A DNA stretch of 64,000 bases, from positions 279,001-343,000 of the forward strand of contig NC_087384.1 in NCBI RefSeq assembly GCF_963675165.1. The letters run 5' to 3'. The position numbers and the translations under genes were made by a program. Numbering within the stretch: the stretch's first letter is position 1; each line of letters begins with the position of its first letter. The notes beneath the pieces are model-generated. The model had not been told where the DNA came from. It searched no databases and saw only the letters and a program-made list of their open reading frames with translations. Below, in pieces: positions 19,901-61,751 of the stretch. This stretch comes from Halichondria panicea (Eukaryota > Porifera > Demospongiae > Suberitida > Halichondriidae).

Positions 19901-22900
19901 CTGCATCGTTGAACTTTGGATAACGGACGCGAGGGCAGTCCAGTCCCGGGAATAGGTCGCCAATTAGCCCCAGAAATAGAGGGACATCCTCAAACACAAA
20001 TTTGGGCAAGTTCATATCACGAAGAGCTCTCATGAGCACCATATCTTCGTTGAGATCAGGTGATCCTCTCTTTAGTTCACCGGCCATAACTAAGACAGCC
20101 TTGAGAGCTCTGAGGCCAAAGTCATAATGGTATTGACGAGACAGCTGGCCCTGGGCTAGCTTGTACAGCACTGTCATCTTCTTGGCAAGGACCTGATGGG
20201 GAGATTACAGGGATAACAAATACGTTAAATAAAGCATCTTTGTAACGACCAGAATTTTAATTCCGATGGTCAAATAACGTGATTTTCTGAAAGCTTAGAG
20301 AGAGGCCTTTCAGATAGTGCATTAAAATCAAAAGTCTATTTTCTACCTGTTTTTGACAAAATATCATAGACCATGCATACACAGAAAAATAGGAAATTCC
20401 AAATTTGGGATTCAAGCATACCATCTGAAATAGCTCCTTTTAAGCTTTCAGAAAATCATTAAATCGTTGAATTTTGACCATCAGAACTCTAGTTACAGAG
20501 CTAACTCCAAAATAAAGGGGACCTACAGGCTACGTATAAGCCATGATAGGAAACGTCCTAATGTACATACACAGGCAATGCTAATATCCTAGTAGTGTGA
20601 ACCACTATAGATACAGTAGCTATGGCATACCTTTGCCATGAGGAACCCCTCCGAGAAGAGCATGATCTCACAGATCTGTTGCAGATCTGGTACAATGACC
20701 ACCACTGGTCTAAAGAGAGCCTTGACACTCTCTGGTAGCTCTGTACGTCCAGCATAGCCAGGATTCATCGTGATGAAGATCCCCACTCTATTGTCCATCG
20801 TGATCTCAACTCCTTCAAACTAGTGGAAGGAGAGGAATGAAATATTTAATATACAGCAGAGTGTACCAATGGATTGGTTATACATACATTTCTAAAAGTT
20901 TATTTTAGATGGTTTTGAGGCCCCTGATCATATTAATTTTTTTACACACGCTACTTACTTGGAACTTGACGTGCTTATGGATGAGTGCGTTCTGAATGGT
21001 CTTGATTTGAGTGGAGATGACAGACAATACAGAGATGTCGATTCTGTTGAACTCATCAAAGCAACCCCATGCTCCACACTGACACAGCCCTGAGAATATC
21101 TTACCAACAGCCTGTGTGTGGGAGTACAGTGTACTTACTGTAATTATACGTACATCTAAAGTAGTAGATAGCTTACCAGCTACACTGTAAGCTGTAAGCT
21201 GTATTACGTACTGTAGTAGGGATTTAACCTCAAAAAAAGTGCAGAGCTAAGCTGTTATTGTATATGTACTGTACTTGTAGCTGGCTTTGAAATCAATGTG
21301 CTAAAAAGACAGCTATAATTATAGTGACCCTACAATATACCCACCTTGAAGTCCATACCTTCACCACAGTTGGTGACCACACAGAGCAGGCCCATAGCCT
21401 TGGCCAAGTCCTTGACAGTCTCTGTTTTGCCTGTACCAGCTGGGCCGGCTGGAGCACCACCAAGATGCATGGACAGTGCTTGTGTAATGGTGAGGTAGAT
21501 CCTATCAGTTAGAGGTGTAATCACAAGACGTCCATTGAGGCCCATGTACTCATATCCAAACCCAAACGATCCTGTGCACTGTCTCACTAAGAGCGTGTCC
21601 CTGTCCTGCTCCCAGTAGAACCTGAGCTGACTCTCCCACTCAAACTCTCTAGCCTCCATTATACTGCACACACACACAAGGGGACACAATCACAAACTGT
21701 ATGTTAACTCTTTGAACGCCCATAACTTTTGCTAATTTTGTAATAAAAAAAGCATCCATTCTGTAGCTCTAATAAAACTCTATTGTTATCTCAAATATCA
21801 ATATCAAACCTATAATACATGTAAAATCAGTAAGTCAATAGCCTTTAGTGTTGGACAAAAATTTAACATGTGCCATGTGATTATGCCTCGGTGTGCATGC
21901 GCAAGCGATGTATACGGTAGTGTGTGTTTGTGTCTGTGTGTGTGTATAAACAGTTACAGCTACTCAAGGATCAATGAAGTGCAAGTAAGAGTTTCTATAG
22001 GCTTCTAGTCATGTTTTCTTGGATTTTAATTCGTGGATTTGCAAAATAATGCTTCGTTCTCAAGTTATGCCTAGTTTTGCTTACTTGGAATGCCATTGCA
22101 GCCTTTTCAGAAGAGTCTGTAGCAAAACTTGTTCACCGAGTGTTGCTACTCTACTTAGTAGTTAGCTCTGCACTAGAATGCTAGCTATTGGTAGCTGCAA
22201 GAGTGCATGAGAAGAGAGCTGCAAGGCTCTGTTGACTTGCAGCCATTAATTTTAGACTTGCACGGTTGGCATCGATCGTTTTTAACAACAATCACGGTCG
22301 ATCATTACCCACTCTCCACTTCTTTTATTTGCAGCTGAAGTGATCCTTTACCGGTCTCTATTAGGTTGTTGCTTCTTTACTCCTTTGGTTTTTATACGTG
22401 TAGATCTATTTATTCATGTCAACAGCCGAGGGTTAGCACTTCAGTGCTCTAGTGTTATGTAGCTTTGGCATCTCCACCGAGGCATCAGCACCCGCGGTGC
22501 TTTCATTACAACTGTGCTTATATAACACACGTTGGGTTAATTAGCATCCGTATAACCCACACACATACAAATGAGTTAAAGTGATACCAGCGTGCTAAAA
22601 TAGCACGCATGTACTTACTAATGTGCCGATTTGACATTTAGTATTTAGCCGACATGTGTGTCACGATAACAGACTTGTTTTTACAGTGTATGGAAGTACC
22701 ATACACATGTGTGTCACGGTAACAGACTTGTTTTTACAATGTATGGAAGTACCACACTACACGTGTGTCACAGTAACAGACTTGTTTTTACAATGTATGG
22801 AAGTACCACACTACACGTGTGTCACAGTAACAGACTTGTTTTTACAGTGTATGGAAGTACCACACTACACGTGTGTCACGGTAACAGACTTGTTTTTACA

Positions 22901-25900
22901 GTGTATGGAAGTACCACACTACACGTGTGTCACAGTAACAGACTTGTTTTTACAATGTATGGAAGTACCACACTACACGTGTGTCACAGTAACAGACTTG
23001 TTTTTACGGTGTATGGAAGTACCACACTACACGTGTGTCACGGTAACAGACTTGTTTTTACGGTGTATGGAAGTACCACACTACACGTGTGTCACGGTAA
23101 CAGACTTGTTTTTACAATGTATGGAAGTACCACACTACACGTGTGTCACAGTAACAGACTTGTTTTTACAGTGTATGGAAGTACCACACTACACGTGTGT
23201 CACGGTAACAGACTTGTTTTTACGGTGTATGGAAGTACCACACTACACATGTGTCACAGTAACAGACTTGTTTTTACATATATACAAGAGTATATATAAT
23301 AATTATAAGAAAGAAACCTTGTTCATTGCAGATACTTTCACGGGGAATATACAATGTGGTTAAAATGCACATGCATGCTGTGCATATATAAGGAAGTCGT
23401 TGGGACATAATTATAGGAAAGATCAATCTGCTTCAAGAGGCCATGGAAATGATTGTGTTTTTTGCTTTACTTGCTTTGAGCTGCTCAGCTGCTGTAGCTG
23501 ACTCTCAGTCTCAACAAGATGACACTATGGATGCAGAATTCATTGCTCTGATGAACGTTTTCGATCAAAAAGCCAAGGAGCAGCATGATACATCCAACTC
23601 TGAAGCTGAGCTGCAAAGCCTCAATCAGAAAGCAATAGAGCAGAGTCACACATCTAACTTTGAAGCTAGGTCGCAAAGCCTCAAAGATTCACTCGCCAAG
23701 GCAATGGCGGACAGTTGCACTGGGCATTGCCGGTCAGCAAACCATGGAGATGGAGTAATAATTGGAACGGCACCATTCTGTGGCGGAAAATGTAGTGTTG
23801 ATTGTCCCCATCGTCAGTGCTACATAGGTACTCTTCACTGGTCTGACTATGGAGCGGGATGCTGGTGGGGCAACAAAGTGTGCTGCTGTGGTGAGGCAAA
23901 AATGATTTATTTCTTAACATAATTATATTATCATTATATACATGTACATGCATACAGCACACTGATAAAGTAAAGGAAAGACGAAGGACACAGTAAACTG
24001 TTACATAATGTGTTGTTTATTAGAAATCAATAAGTACAAAAGCAAACATAAGAGATTTATGTAATGGTTAGATCATGTGCATGAGATATCTATGTGTTAT
24101 AGTGTCCCAAATCCCGAGGGGACACTATAACCATAGATACCGAATGCACATGCTCTAACCCATTTAGATCCTACTTTTCATTGGCTAAACAAAACATTAC
24201 CTAAGGCAAAACATTTTTTTAAATCAAAGCCTTAGTATTATTCGTCAAGTTTTACTCATGCTGAACATGCTGAAAGAGTTCTGAACACTCAAGTTGCCCC
24301 TGTATGGATGAACTATACATGTAGTTAGCCTGAACCTATTAGCTCACCCATACCTAGAGTCTATAAACAAGCTCTCTTGCAAGAAACATTCTGCTACACC
24401 TATACACAAGCCCTACAACTATTTGTTTCTCAGTGTAGCCAAAAAGGAACAGCTTGCAAAAACTCAAGCCAATTTAAGCCAATACTCAAGTTATACAACT
24501 TGAATGCGTATAAGAAAACAAATCCCCAGAAAACCTGCAATACAATGACATTTATACAGACAATTATTATTATTTGTATTTTTTTTTTTATTGCATGCAT
24601 GCTTATAAGTTGTTGTGTACTGCATATTTAATAGCAATCATGTCAGATAGCTGTATTGTATGATCTTCACTAGTATTGTATTCAATAGCCAAAGGCATTT
24701 ATTAGACACTAGTTGATAAGATCTACATGTACATGGGAAGTACATGGGAAGTACATGGGAAAAGTGCCTCAGAGCAGGTATACTATTAGCCTCGATCGCA
24801 GGCCGCTCTTCCTCAAAGAGAGGGCCTGGTATCGACTGTTTGCGCATGCGCCACATAATCCCCAGAAACTGGGGACTCCGGATATTATCGTATAATGCTC
24901 AGTAAAACAATGACGTCACAACGAACAGAAGTGGATTGAAGAAAGTGGATAGAAGTGCGATTGTGAAGGTTTCTAGCTCCTGTGATAGCATTCTAATAGC
25001 TACCCCCTAGCCTGCTATGTTAACAAAGGACTCACAGCCTGCAACTGTGTGGACGACAATCGTCTGAACGGAGGGAAGGCTGACAATAGCCTATATGGAC
25101 AGGCCACGCCCATCTGACACTAACCTAGGTGAAAGTCTACATGTAGACTCTATTAGAAGAAATAGCTGCTGTAACCAAACGTACAGCTCTGTCTCTAGTT
25201 AGCTAGCTAGCTATATAGCTCTGTGTATGTAGTATTCTTTGTGTGTATATGTTATTCAGGATATTTTTCGGGGTTTAATGGGAAACATTACGGGGAAATT
25301 ATCCAATAATTTTGCGCATGCGCAAACAGTCAGTAGCAGGCCTCCTTTTTGAGGCCTTGTGAAGGAGGCTAGTATACTATGGGACTTAGTATACCTAGTA
25401 TTCCGTTGTCAAGTAATTGTATTGTAGTCAAGCGATTTGCGCAAGTGCACTAATATCTAAATGAGTTAGACACTGTGTCTAACTATTATATAGAGCATGT
25501 TGTCAGGTGCTCTATTAGAAATAGAGCACATAGCAACATAAGCAAATACACTCAAGTGGGATCTAAGAGTATAATATTATACAGGTATCATATGATATGG
25601 TACAATCCGACACTTATAGATCTATGGCAAGTATGTCATGCCATGCATGCAGTGTCATGAACAATGTTTGTTGAGAATATTTTAAACAAATTGCAGGTAC
25701 ATGCTCTGCTGCATATATATATCCAACTAGAAAAACATTTGCAATGTGAAAAATTGCTAGGATTGGCCAGGGGAAACAAGCACCCACGTTGGGTCAATTA
25801 GCACCCATATAACCCACACACATACACATGAGTTAAAGTGATACCAGCGTGCTAAAATAGGACGCATGTACTCACTAATGTGCCGATTTGACATTTAGTA

Positions 25901-28900
25901 TTTAGCCGACATGTGTGTCACGGTAACAGACTTGTTTTTACAATGTATGGAAGTACCACACTACACGTGTGTCACGGTAACAGACTTGTTTTTACAATGT
26001 ATGGAAGTATCACACTACACGTGTGTCACGGTAACAGACTTGTTTTTACAGTGTATGGAAGTACCACACTACACGTGTGTCACGGTAACAGACTTGTTTT
26101 TACAGTGTATGGAAGTACCACACTACACGTGTGTCACGGTAACAGACTTGTTTTTACAGTGTATGGAAGTACCACACTACACGTGTGTCACGGTAACAGA
26201 CTTGTTTTTACAGTGTATGGAAGTACCACACTACACGTGTGTCACGGTAACAGACTTGTTTTTACAGTGTATGGAAGTATCACACTACACGTGTGTCACG
26301 GTAACAGACTTGTTTTTACAGTGTATGGAAGTGCCACACTACACGTGTGTCACGGTAACAGACTTGTTTTTACAATGTATGGAAGTACCACACTACACGT
26401 GTGTCACGGTAACAGACTTGTTTTTACAATGTATGGAAGTACCACACTACACGTGTGTCACGGTAACAGACTTGTTTTTACAGTGATATATATATACAAG
26501 AGTATATATAATAATTATAAGAAAGAAACCTTGTTCATTGCAGATACTTTCACGGGGAATATACAATGTGGTTAAAATGCACATGCATGCAGTGCATATA
26601 TAAGGAAGTCGTTGGGACATAATTATAGGAAAGATCAATCTGCTTCAAGAGGCCATGGAAATGATTGTGTTTTTTGCTTTGCTTGCTTTGAGCTGCTCAG
26701 CTGCTGTAGCTGACTCTCAGTCTCAACAAGATGACACTATGGATGCAGAATTCATTGATCTGATGAACGTTTTCGATCAAAAAGCCAAGGAGCAGCATGA
26801 TACATCCAACTCTGAAGCTGAGCTGCAAAGCCTCAATCAGAAAGCAATAGAGCAGAGTCACACATCTAACTTTGAAGCTAGGTCGCAAAGCCTCAAAGAT
26901 TCACTCGCCATGGCAATGGCGGCCAGTTGCAGTGGGCATTGCCAGTCAGCAAACCATGGAAATGGAAGAATAATTGGAACGGCACCATCCTGTAACGGAA
27001 AATGTAGTAGGGATTGTCCCAATCATCAGTGCTACATAGGTACTCTTCACTGGTCTGACTATGGATATGGATGCTGGTGGGGCAACAAAGTGTGCTGCTG
27101 TGGTGAGGCAAAAATGATTTATTTCTTAACATAATTATATACATGCATACATCACAGATGCTGCTGTGGTGAGGCAAAAATGATTTATTTCTTAACATAA
27201 TTATATTATCATTATATACATGTACATGCATACAGCACACTGATAAAGTAAAGGAAAGACGAAGGACACAGTAAACTGTTACATAATGTGTTGTTTATTG
27301 AAATCAATGCTTATTATAAGTACAAAAGCAAACATAAGAGATTTATGCAATGGTTAGATCATGTGCATGAGATATCTATGTGTTATCTAGTGTCCCAAAT
27401 CCCGAGGGGACACTGTAACCATAGATACCGAATGCACATGCTCTAACCCATTTAGATCCTACTTTTCATTGGCTAAACAAAACATTACCTAAGGCAAAAC
27501 ATTTTTTTAAATCAAAGCCTTAGTATTATTCGTCAAGTATTACTCATGCTGAACATGCTGAAAGAGTTCTGAACACTCAAGTTGCCCCTGTATGGATGAA
27601 CTATACATGTAGTTAGCCTGAACCTATTAGCTCACCCATACCTAGAGTCTATAAACAAGCTCTCTTGCAAGAAACATTCTGCTACACCTACCCAAGCCTA
27701 CAACTATTTGTTTCTCAGTGTAGCTAAAAAGGAACAGCTTGCAAAAACTCAAGCCAATTCAAGCCAATACTCAAGTTATACAACTTGAATGCGTATAAGA
27801 AAACAAATCCCCAGAAAACCTGCAATACAATGACATTTATACAGACAATTATTATTATTTGTATTTTTTTTTATTGCATGCATGCTTATAAGTTGTTGTG
27901 TACTGCATATTTGATAGCAATCATGTCAGATAGCTGTATTGTATGATCTTCACTAGTATTGTATTCAATAGCCAAAGGCATTTATTAGATACTAGTTGAT
28001 AAGATCTACATGTACATGGGAAGTACATGGGAAGTACATGGGAAAAGTGCCTCAGAGCAGGTATACTATTAGCCTCGATCCCAGGCCGCTCTTCCTCGAA
28101 GAGAGGGCCTGGTATCGACTGTTTGCGCATGCGCCACATAATCCCCAGAAACTGGGAACTCCGGATATTATCGTATAATGCTCAGTAAAACAATGACGTC
28201 ACAACGAACAGAAGTGGATTGAAGAAAGTGGATAGAAGTGCGATTGTGAAGGTTTTTAGCTCCTGTGATAGCATTCTAATAGCTACCCCCTAGCCTGCTA
28301 TGTTAACAAAGAACTCACAGCCTGCAACCGTGTGGACGACAATCGTCTGAACGGAGGGAAGGCTGACAATAGCCTGTATGGACAGGCCACGCCCATCTGA
28401 CACTAACCTTGGTGAAAGTCTACATGTAGACTCTATTTAGAAGAAATAGCTGCTGTAACCAAACGTACAGCTCTGTCTCTAGCTAGCTAGCTAGCTATAT
28501 AGCTCTGTGTATGTAGTATTCTTTGTGTGTATATGTTATTCAGGATATTTTTCGGGGTTTAATGGGAAACATTACGAGGAAATTATCCAATAATTTTGCG
28601 CATGCGCAAACAGTCAGTAGCAGGCCTCCTTTTTGAGGCCTTGTGAAGGAGGCTAGTATTTATATACTATGGGACTTAGTATACCTAGTATTCCGTTGTC
28701 AAGTAATTGTATTGTAGTCAAGCGATTTGCGCAAGCGCACTAATATCTAAATGAGTTAGACACTGTGTCTATATAGAGCATGTTGTCAGGTGCTCTATTA
28801 GAAATAGAGCACATAGCAACATAAGCAAATACACTCAAGTGGGATCTAAGAGTATAATATTATACAGGTATCATATGATATGGTACAATCTGACACTTAT

Positions 28901-31425
28901 AGATCTATGGCAAGTATGTCATGCATGCATGCAGTGTCATGAACAATGTTTGTTGAGAATATTTTAAACAAATTGCAGGTACATGCTCTGCTGCATATAT
29001 ATATCCGACTAGAAAAACATTTGCAATGTGAAAAATTGCTAGGATTGGCCAGGGGAAACACCAAAAAGCATGGGAACAAGAAATCAGACGAGAACATAAC
29101 TGCAATCTGTTACATGCAGCAAAATTAAAGTTGATCGTGACAATGTGTGTGTAAAAGCTAGGTTATGTAGCTTTTGCACCTCCACCGAAGCATCAGCACT
29201 CGCAGGGTGCTTTCATTATGTAAGTAAGTATAGGAGGAGCTACAGAAAGCAAGTTTTCCTTTTGAAATCAGACCCTGTATGCACACATCCACACACACAC
29301 TCACACACCCACACACTCACACACCCACACCCACACATACACACATCCCCACACATTATAGAGGCTTACCTGTCCCTCACAAATCTATCAATGATGTCTC
29401 TATTGTGCACGTCCACAATGAGCACACTGTTGAACTTCTTACGATCGTTCTTACTCAATTGAGAGCGAACCTGTACACACAAGTACAGAGAATAAGAACA
29501 CAACCACACACAAGCACATGCAGTACTCTTGAATCAAAAGTTTGCAAAATGTACATGCACATGAACGGCACCTATATACATGCGGGTAATTTTTGGGGGG
29601 CAAAATATTCGTGGATGAGCAATATTGAGTCATTTCGTGGATAATATTTTCGTGGTTGCTGCTTGCACTGCAGGTAAAGGTCGGCAAGGTCGCTTCATTT
29701 GTGGGTCATGGTCAGACCTTCAGCCACGAAAACCATGAATATTTTGCCCCATGAAAATTACCCTCTATACAGGTAGTTCATACTATATTTGAAACGATGC
29801 ACGGTAATCATTGAACTAATAGCCTCATTTATACTGCACATAATAAAATTATTATATTATACAATTATACAGCTTGCAGAATCTGAACAGCATGCGTGGG
29901 GTATACATGCATGGGGTATACATGCATGGGGTATACATGCATGGGGTATACATGCATGGGGTATACATGCATGGGGTATACATGCATGGGGTATACATGC
30001 GTGAGGTATACATGCGTGAGGTATACATGCGTGAGGTATACATGCATGGGGTACACATGCATGGGGTACACATGCATGGGGTGTACCTACCTGTACGACA
30101 AGATCATCAATCTGTGTGTGCAGTTTCTTGGCGTAGTTTTTCATGGCCATCTTGTCTCCCTTCTTGACCTTACTGAATACATCTTCTACCTCCCAGGTCC
30201 ACCACACCTGGTTGGTGGCCAGCACCACCATGCCCTGGTAGTCGTACATCCACTCCACTCTGATGGAGGAGGAGGGGCAGTGTACAAATGGTAAAATGGA
30301 AGCAATGTACCTCTTAACTAGAATTTTTACACTACTTGACGTTCTACGAACAACACTGTAGCTACTATAGCTACAGAAACTACAATATACATTTTTATGC
30401 TGTGCTACGTACAGCAAGCATTATAATTGTCAAGTTCATCAGAACACACACACACACACACCCACCCACACACACCTTGATTTCTTGTGAGTATAGGTGA
30501 AGATGGCTTCCTTTGTGATGAGCTGGTTGGTCCGCCTCATCTCATTCAGCACCTACAGTTATACAGTGTTGCAAGACCATCTCCATACGTAACTCAATAA
30601 GTCAGTATTCAATCAACTACCAACCAACCCAGTATTCTTCCTATAATTATATACACTGTATATACATACCTGAGTCATCCAGTCCTCTACCTTGCCCTCT
30701 GCAACCACTCCTTGTCTATACTCCATCATCTCCCCCTCACCAGAGATCATGGCATTGGCCAGTGGTTCACCAGACGAGCCCTGATCAAACCGAAGCTTGG
30801 CTATGTTGTCAAACATCTGTGGAGACAAATAGAACAAAATAAACATAACACACACTAAGCGATTTGCAATACAAATTAATGTTCTTTGATATCTATCGTA
30901 CAACGAGAAAATTTGGCTATTTGGCGAATTTTACACAATGACATTGCCAAAGTAGCCACACACTTGAGACGTCAAATAAAAAAAACAGTTTTAAATGGCT
31001 CATTTACCAACTATAAATACTTGCCAAATTTTCCCATTATACGGTACACACTATTATATAGACTGACCTTGATCATGTGCTCCTGTACACAGGTGCACTC
31101 GTGGCTACCTAGTATAGAGAGCAGCTCTTCATCAGATATGAAGAAGAATCGAGGGAAGGCATTTCTTTTGGAGTCAAGATAATCGTTAAGGCTCTTTTGA
31201 CATTTCTCCAAACCACTGCTGATTGATTCTAAGTCTTGTAGTCTGTTCGGAGCATGGCAAGCATCTAGGACAAGCGGGTTTTTGTTTGTGTCTGACATAA
31301 TTTTCTTGAAAAGTTTGTCGATATTGTCAAATTTCTTTGCTTCCTCTGGTAGCTGGGCCCTGATGTCCCCACCGATGAAGATGGACTCGAGATACATCCA
31401 CTTGCGTTGGACCACCATCCACACC

Positions 31426-46500: not shown

Positions 46501-49500
46501 AGCTCAAATCTCTCAGCAGATCCCTCAAACGCAGCCATGGCTTGGTAAAGTGTGAGAGATTGCTTCTCCGGGTCCTTTGCTTGTCCATATCTACGAGTGG
46601 TACGATCACCAGACCCCAACCTGTGTACCACGAGAAGACAGAGAAGTTGAACAATGCAGTACATTCTGGGTAAAACTATTAGCTAAAAATGTTTGGTATA
46701 AAGAGTACAAATATTATGTGTGGGCCTATAAAAACAATGTAATCGAGCTTACCACTTCGGCTTAATTGTAGGAACAATTCTCGTACTCTTTCTGCTGACG
46801 AAATTCCTGCGAATCTGCCCACAAAAATATCATTATTTGAAATACAAGCAGCGTGCTGTATGTGTGTGTGTACTCATACAAGCAAGGTGTTGTATCTGTG
46901 TGTGTGTACTCACCTTCTTGACGTAGACAGTGGCCTGCCTCTTGTCAAACCTCTTGAACATAGCCCCAGGCACATATCCCTCACCACCATTATACCTGCA
47001 TGCACACAGACATACAAGTACAGTCATGTGCAGTTTTGCTATAGTTATAACCTTAAATGTACACATGTACATCAAATTGTAAGTTTTCTCACAAAACCAT
47101 TTTGGGAATGACTTCCAAGAACGTTTTGCCATGTTCATGCAGTTACATATCTCACTAATTGCTTAACTTCCTTAATTCATACAAGTGTGGGTTTCCATGG
47201 CACGGCTGTGTGTGTGGTGTGTGGTCAAGTTTCATTTGGCAAAGGAGGTGGTTTGATCATGCACACACATTGTTGAGAATGGGATGTTTTTGGCTGAAGC
47301 CTGTCAATGTGTGTACTCCTACAAGGCCACCTGTTGCATGAACTTTGACAGGGGGAGGGGGTTTGAGAGCTAGGACACGCAGCCATGCATGCAGCATTAT
47401 ACTTACTTCCTTTAGATAGGAAGGAGATTTTTTTTAATAGGATATGACCTTTGCTGTGTGTACGTAGACCGTGAGAGAACATCACTTGGACAGGGAGAGT
47501 ATAAACTCTTGGGTTTAAAAATATACCCCCTTACAGCACATGTCGGCTCAAATCTCATACACAATATTAATTCTTGGTTTTTAACGGGCGAGCATAAATT
47601 ATTAGCTTACTTAGTTATCAAAAGTATGCAAGTCAGTTTGTCATTATTGTCACTATTTCCTCACCTGACTAACCACCACCCGTCCACGTGTTTCTTAATC
47701 ACCTTCACGACAGCCCCTCGAACAAAACTGAGCTCATCTTCTCGAGAGGATTGGTATTTGGAGATACTAATGTACCGTGCCCCCTCTGCAATGGAGTATA
47801 ATAATGACGGACGGAAGTCACATGACATACAATATATCATCGTTGTTGTTATTTTATGCACATGCATTATTGAAGCTAGTCCCTTCCATATTGTCATGAT
47901 CATATCTTACAGACAAAGTCCAGGAAGGTAGTACTCACTACGGAGCAAACTCATTTGCTAAGAGTAAAGTCACCATTTGCTCCAGTAGGAAATTATTATA
48001 GTCATATGATATAGACCCTGTAGCAATTATGCCCCATCCCCCCCACACCACACACCCACACACTCCACACCACACTCACGTCTTTCTGGGGCTATAAGTC
48101 TCTCGTTCTCCTGTGCCTCGCTCTGAAGGTCCTCCGGGTCAACTGGCACAAGGAAAGAGGCAGGAGCCCACCCAATGGACCCGCCATTGTCCACCATCCA
48201 CCAACCTGTGAGGGGTGTGACAAGTGTGTAAAGTGTGTGAGGCTCGTATATATTAGGGCATGTTATTATTAGCTAGCAAATGAGATCAGAACCAGTAGCA
48301 ATGAGATAATATTGATAGTATGCACCAGTCAACCATTCCTCTAGAACACACAGTAGGCTGGTATCAAAGCCAACAGTGTTTACTAGCAAGGCACCTGAGA
48401 GGCTTCTGTGGGGAAGCAGCTGCATTTGTAAATTTTGCAATGCAAAAAGTCTTTGCTCAACCACATTCATTTACAGTTCTTAGCAGAGTACTCTGACATG
48501 TAGCTAATTCAATTGAGAATAATAAGATTATGGTCACGGTCTATCGACACCTCCCCCATAGCTAATTGGATAAGAATTCAAGTGTGTCTGCGAGCGAGAG
48601 TGGTATGTGTGTGTGGTGGGTGTACTCTTACCGCCGGGATCTTTCTTCATGACCTGAACTATTGCTCCCTCGGGGAAGCTGAACTTTGTCTTCTTGTCCG
48701 AGTAGTTGGCCACAGAGAGATAGGAGCGGAGAGACACGGGACCACTGATGGTTGAGTCCTCATCTGAAGGTGTGGTGTGATATTGAAATGCTATACCTTT
48801 GTTACTATACCTTTGTTATCATTATATGAAGTCTCACATGTGGCTACATATAGAACTTCTTTACTATAATGAAAACTCACTTGCAATAACACGGTTGCTT
48901 TTTTTGCCTTTACTCTTGTGCCTGCATTGACAAATTAACAGGTACATAATAATATTATATACTCATAATTCATCTTACAGCCAGCTGCAAGCAATGGAGC
49001 ATTCAACAAACACACGACTGTATAAGGTTTGATGCATCTACAGTAGTTAGCACTCCTTAATTGTGCCAAGCCAGCAGATGTTTGGCAATGAGATAGCCTT
49101 ATAAAGTAGATATTGAATAGTGTTATGAACTGTATCAAAGGTATGTGTGTGTATACACCACTGAATTGGTATGGTGAAGCAACCCAGTCAATTTGCAAAA
49201 CTTTGGGAGAGTTTTCCGGTATTCAATATTTACTAAGCAACAAATTTGCTATTATTATAATTACTTTGATTTAGGTGATCCTGGTACAGAGATGTCTGAT
49301 GCTTTCAAGGAGAAGAACTCGCTGACAAGATCACACTTGACAATGGAGGCAGGCAGTCCGGGAATCTCTTTGATATACGAACTGAGTAGCTTCTCGAACG
49401 ATCGATCATCGCTAATGGCTCTCTGTATACCAAATATAGTTTGCTTGAGGGGACAGTCTGGAATCACCCTCTCACTCTTCTTGAAATAGCCGGCCTCGAC

Positions 49501-59989: not shown

Positions 59990-61751
<1,762 letters not shown>

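Follow-up and report, generated by a model that had tools for sequence, protein, structure and literature searches.

Two tandemly duplicated genes of the sponge Halichondria panicea, here called A and B, encode putatively secreted cysteine-rich peptides whose mature parts have diverged from each other by amino acid replacements only. This local excess of replacements is real and statistically supported, and it is a known kind of evolution. The best explanation, which is held with moderate confidence, is that A and B are secreted disulfide-rich effectors in which the residues between the cysteines were changed by positive selection after duplication, mainly in B. In the proposed model, a segment of 3.3 kb that carried a single gene was copied in tandem within an intron of a dynein gene, after which positive selection would have acted on the residues between the cysteines in one copy, mainly B, leaving the leader, the linker and the disulfide scaffold intact. 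The likeliest role would be that of an extracellular defence or recognition effector directed against a changing partner, be it a microbe, a fouler or a competitor.

The gene pair and its surroundings

The window analysed here is a stretch of 64,000 nucleotides, and it contains, as the preliminary description had it, two plus-strand ORFs of 159 aa each, A at 23443-23922 and B at 26655-27134. Both share one layout, i.e. a leader (residues 1-19/20, delimited by eye), a linker to about residue 85 and a ten-cysteine domain from about residue 86, and their products would be putatively secreted proteins with a helical linker and a GTAPFC-type domain. The N-terminus has a hydrophobic start and an AVA-DS site, both recognised by eye, and the linker of A contains a two-fold 20-residue repeat (41-60 and 61-80, 13 of 20 residues identical). 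All ten domain cysteines (92, 96, 113, 117, 121, 126, 140, 147, 148 and 149), which presumably form disulfides, are conserved between A and B, and the leader has one further conserved cysteine, C14. Residues 21-91 of A and B hold no dibasic pair, so "pro region" is only a formal label for this part; other proteases are possible. The net charges of the two domains are similar (+1 and +2), giving no clear shift towards the cationic antimicrobial type.

A Kozak-like start, the ORF, the leader and a TATA-like stretch upstream are all conserved. Retention of the leader, the cysteine frame, the TATA-like stretch and the ORF argues against decay, and both genes are presumably expressed. The TATA-like GCATATATAAGGAAGTC, a putative promoter element, lies approximately 45-60 nt upstream of the ATG within a gene cassette (23305-24023, plus strand; the gene and short flanks) that is common to the copies at 5.07 Mb of contig C8 and ~85% identical there. 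A bacterial promoter scan of the locus was uninformative, because the gene is animal. A 45-base piece of the gene 3' end starts at 23882 in A, where it is single, and at both 27094 and 27160 in B, the exact repeat (27160-27204, plus strand) following the piece in ORF B at a distance of 66 nt.

A lies in a duplicated unit at 22530-25780 (left edge approximate) and B in a unit at 25784-29062 (edges approximate); the units are arranged in tandem, head-to-tail, and are 3.2-3.3 kb long, and the two main BLAST pieces between them show 96-97% identity. Each carries a 54-bp minisatellite upstream of its gene (22652-23278, 11.6 copies, for A and 25909-26485, 10.7 copies, for B), for which a genome search gave only one 45-bp partial match elsewhere among those listed. 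Both units sit inside a single GT-AG intron of 7706 nt (21664-29369, minus strand) that belongs to a DNAH10-like gene for an axonemal dynein heavy chain, to which A and B are antisense. The host was recognised from the minus-strand ORFs flanking the intron, 8 of 10 tested matching dynein heavy chain families, and from two minus-strand ORFs whose best PDB match is DNAH10; the nearest exons to the right of the intron were identified by eye.

Several other repeats were seen in the window. A dispersed, partly palindromic element lies behind each gene (24048-24200 and 27336-27488), with matches on both strands at dozens of places on many contigs, at ~78-99% identity (40 of 331 candidates scored), and is possibly a MITE-like repeat. 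Directly behind a dynein exon, a 15-bp minisatellite (29891-30086, 13.1 copies) is read through in the open frame of the exon. The window's right half holds near-identical ORF pieces that recur ~13 kb apart (47416-47928 and 60207-60494 on the plus strand, 48537-48815 and 61469-61750 on the minus strand), which indicates another duplicated gene there; as judged by eye, it may have SH3-like parts.

Replacement excess in the mature part

Codon comparison of A and B revealed, in codons 1-85, a silent change at codon 9 (TTA/TTG) and the single replacement A35D. Codons 86-159 (23698-23919 in A and 26910-27131 in B, both plus strand) differ by 18 base changes in 12 codons, all of them replacements (K86M, D90A, T93S, R97Q, D103N, V105R, F112S, G114N, V119R, H123N, R124H and A138Y), with no silent codon. 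The counts for both regions, and the conservation of the ten cysteines, are exactly as previously described. Among the changes said to need two or three bases, V105R, G114N, V119R and A138Y do so, whereas R124H needs only one (CGT/CAT). The flanks, described as nearly identical, are indeed alike, but differ at 1/164 positions upstream and 30/1845 (1.6%) in the 3' flank, as well as by indels. The corresponding counts are 2/255 for codons 1-85 and 18/225 for codons 86-160, so that the mature part exceeds both the 3' flank (Fisher p 8.6e-7) and codons 1-85 (Fisher p 5e-5); counted as 12 events, the 12 changed codons still represent an excess over the remaining aligned bases taken together (p 4e-4). 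Nei-Gojobori dN for codons 86-159 is 0.10, approximately six times the 3' flank divergence, while the formal dS of 0.029 is a product of path counting in multi-base codons. The regional dN/dS comparison proposed earlier gives a replacement excess in the mature part and no comparable synonymous divergence between A and B. Under random placement, zero silent codons has P 0.003-0.014 for 18 independent changes and 0.02-0.05 for 12 events; taken alone, the absence of silent changes is modest, and weaker, evidence.

Ten of the 18 mature changes fall into four clusters, each made up of two or three neighbouring bases of a single codon, and transitions account for 8/18 changes in the mature part vs 23/30 in the 3' flank. 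Both features would fit clustered multi-base mutation in a redundant copy under relaxed constraint, with no positive selection involved, and multi-base substitutions can yield false signals of selection, as excerpts of PMC10336034 describe. This explanation is nevertheless unlikely: relaxed constraint cannot raise the rate above that of the flank, one would expect to see silent changes and lost cysteines, and the 3' flank lacks such clusters except at two spots beside indels, which hold 8 of its 30 changes.

Other copies and the direction of change

A whole-genome search with protein A returned eight rows at seven places (two rows on C16 overlap), and the same seven places were recovered with P0007 (seven rows) and P0004 (eight rows) as queries. 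Four copies are full length, i.e. A, B, C (C8:5075032) and D (C8:5065644). The remaining three places, two on C14 and one on C16, hold partial copies that have frame breaks and lack cysteines. The search for further copies that had been recommended yields two more intact and three decayed copies in the genome, besides the relatives P0001-P0004. C and D share 77% identity with A, with homology to the A locus chiefly at 23305-24023, and they stop six codons before A and B, which read on into MIYFLT; A and B are longer by these six residues because of one extra A (23923) before an ancestral-looking stop. P0001 likewise reads on past the stop position of C and D. P0002, encoded on a public contig of 1.3 Mb, lies letter-for-letter within the C locus and so probably comes from the same species as A and B. 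Two other close relatives are P0001 and P0003.

C and D differ at 77/2239 positions in the 3' flank, 21/2163 in a 5' block and 2/465 in the coding region, with 1/210 in the mature part, a silent change. The absence of a mature burst at a flank divergence of the same order indicates that A/B does not merely reflect a hot spot of the gene. Identities in linker and mature part are 57/65 and 45/66 for P0002/P0003, 51/65 and 48/66 for A/C, and 55/61 and 58/66 for A/P0001, in which the mature part is not faster. Thus A/B show the burst clearly and P0002/P0003 possibly, whereas C/D and A/P0001 lack it. The proposal of a diversifying effector family consequently holds for fast change under a conserved leader in A/B (dN 0.10, at sites variable in the family), but not for C/D, which lack the burst, and the other pairs are mixed.

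When C serves as the outgroup, the derived state is in B at codons 103, 105, 114, 123 and 138 and in A at 93 and 97. C shows a third state at codons 86, 90, 112, 119 and 124, where P0001 matches A; B, the copy with the most derived replacements, would therefore be derived at up to 10 of the 12 changed codons, provided that P0001 is orthologous. The one-branch expectation of 1.8 bases compares with nine in the five clear B codons (P 1e-4), and all ten candidate B codons would hold up to 16 bases (P 1e-10); when the five clear codons count as one event each, B by itself shows a weak excess (P 0.04). Against C, dN/dS in the mature part is 0.168/0.094 for A and 0.207/0.119 for B, and in linker plus leader 0.083/0.082 for A and 0.078/0.061 for B.

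Gene conversion would turn the excess into one event: a tract from a more diverged family member would have replaced the mature part in one of the two genes, probably B. The sharp localisation of the excess and the presence of other family copies in the genome accord with this, but such a tract should import silent changes and none is seen, no B-like donor was found among the copies of the genome or the relatives P0001-P0004, and the donor itself would still require replacement-only divergence, which makes conversion improbable. Heterozygosity at the ~1.6% level is conceivable in a marine invertebrate, so the flank divergence could be that of two alleles of one locus set in tandem by the assembler, but this is the least probable alternative, as the window contains no N, the junction is gap-free inside a 7.09 Mb contig and the replacement-only divergence would remain to be explained.

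The GTAPFC family and comparable peptides

By its motifs, the A/B domain is a member of a wide family with the signature GTAPFC...C-x-G-x-K-xx-CC, as both proteins have the GTAPFC core, C-x-G-x-K and the CC(C) end. A profile of six mature regions matched 28 proteins at E up to 10 and a wider profile 187 proteins at E up to 1, ranging over marine protists, lancelet, centipede and bacteria, with named members in Diacronema lutheri (KFE25_004490), Strigamia maritima and Branchiostoma lanceolatum (Hypp3544). Among the 120 matches listed of the 187, five have a precomputed Pfam label (P0081, P0095, P0102, P0106 and P0108); from the accessions, we take that of P0081 to be Kazal and those of P0102 and P0106 to be ricin-type lectin. 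P0095 gave no family in our own Pfam/NCBIfam scan, despite its label. A six-sequence set with repeated domains aligns to the family (E 9.5e-11) and has relatives at 14 bacterial loci, e.g. in Lysobacter, Cupriavidus and Actinoallomurus. In P0032, P0034, P0062, P0075 and P0076 the domain is present twice per protein, as judged partly by eye.

In a 56-row alignment, G108, G143, K145 and seven cysteines are invariant, and the 12 sites changed between A and B have a mean entropy of 2.64 vs 1.82 at other non-cysteine sites (p 0.007). Pfam and NCBIfam scans, covering A twice and B once, found no model above the curated cut-off for the domain in A, B or the other members scanned, and no solved structure in the PDB matched it by sequence or fold. 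Among viral models the best fold match had E 3.1, viral contigs searched with protein A and alignment A6 gave no relative, and neither did a genome-contig collection searched with protein A. An AlphaFold model of the domain from 56 sequences has a short helix and small strands (mean pLDDT 81.7, pTM 0.66); the full-length model was set aside (mean pLDDT 43.8). No paper in open-licence PMC text contains the literal GTAPFC in that one spelling, which is not proof of an unpublished domain, and none of the papers listed on sponge cysteine-rich precursors under positive selection deals with a GTAPFC protein by title and abstract. The family seems uncharacterised. Its presence beside ricin-type lectin repeats in some bacterial-type proteins suggests that the domain may bind surfaces or glycans. 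Tentatively, GTAPFC could be an undescribed disulfide-rich extracellular domain of animals, marine protists and bacteria with such a binding function, perhaps turned here into a fast-diversifying recognition or defence peptide.

Hypp3544, the Strigamia maritima protein, KFE25_004490 and the bacterial two-domain proteins share the core motif and several cysteines with A and B. The unnamed GTAPFC proteins have other lengths and domain partners, whereas A and B have the linker with its repeat and two extra N-terminal cysteines, 92 and 96. Beyond the family, barrettides of the sponge Geodia barretti resemble A and B in leader, variable middle segment and cysteine-rich core, and have anti-fouling activity, according to excerpts of PMC8713285; at 31 residues, with four cysteines in two disulfides as given there, they differ from the ten-cysteine A and B, which fall outside the barrettides. 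Sponge knottins (asteropsins and stryphnines) are likewise animal-encoded, cysteine-rich and equipped with a leader and an intermediate region, but the passages available from PMC13418204 give them six cysteines in the knottin pattern, and the ten of A and B, in another spacing, place these outside the knottins. Conotoxins also keep cysteines while diversifying intervening residues (PMC3823881), and mussel CRP-I is also a duplicated cysteine-rich gene family, with ~50 genes and pseudogenes (PMC10138031) vs four full-length copies here; both are likened to A and B by pattern. A and B differ from conotoxins in having no venom context, and the venom-like role once suggested found no support.

Conserved cysteines with diversified intervening residues are usually found in a setting of defence or recognition. 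Since the GTAPFC domain is widespread, the effector role is argued from the evolutionary pattern alone, and the sponge peptides of comparable precursor layout, as far as the excerpted sources describe them, would suggest defence or recognition by analogy, with size and cysteine number differing. Counting against selection are the carriage of the burst by two sequences only, A and B, the position of F112S on a conserved family site, the mature part of A/P0001 that is not faster and the four multi-base clusters. Positive selection after duplication, mainly on B, remains the preferred reading.

The case points to a widespread cysteine-rich domain without a place in Pfam, NCBIfam and PDB scans. 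A and B offer a compact case of a frozen cysteine scaffold with diversified intervening residues after tandem duplication, in which the flank serves as an internal control and another duplicated pair, C/D, stayed conserved.
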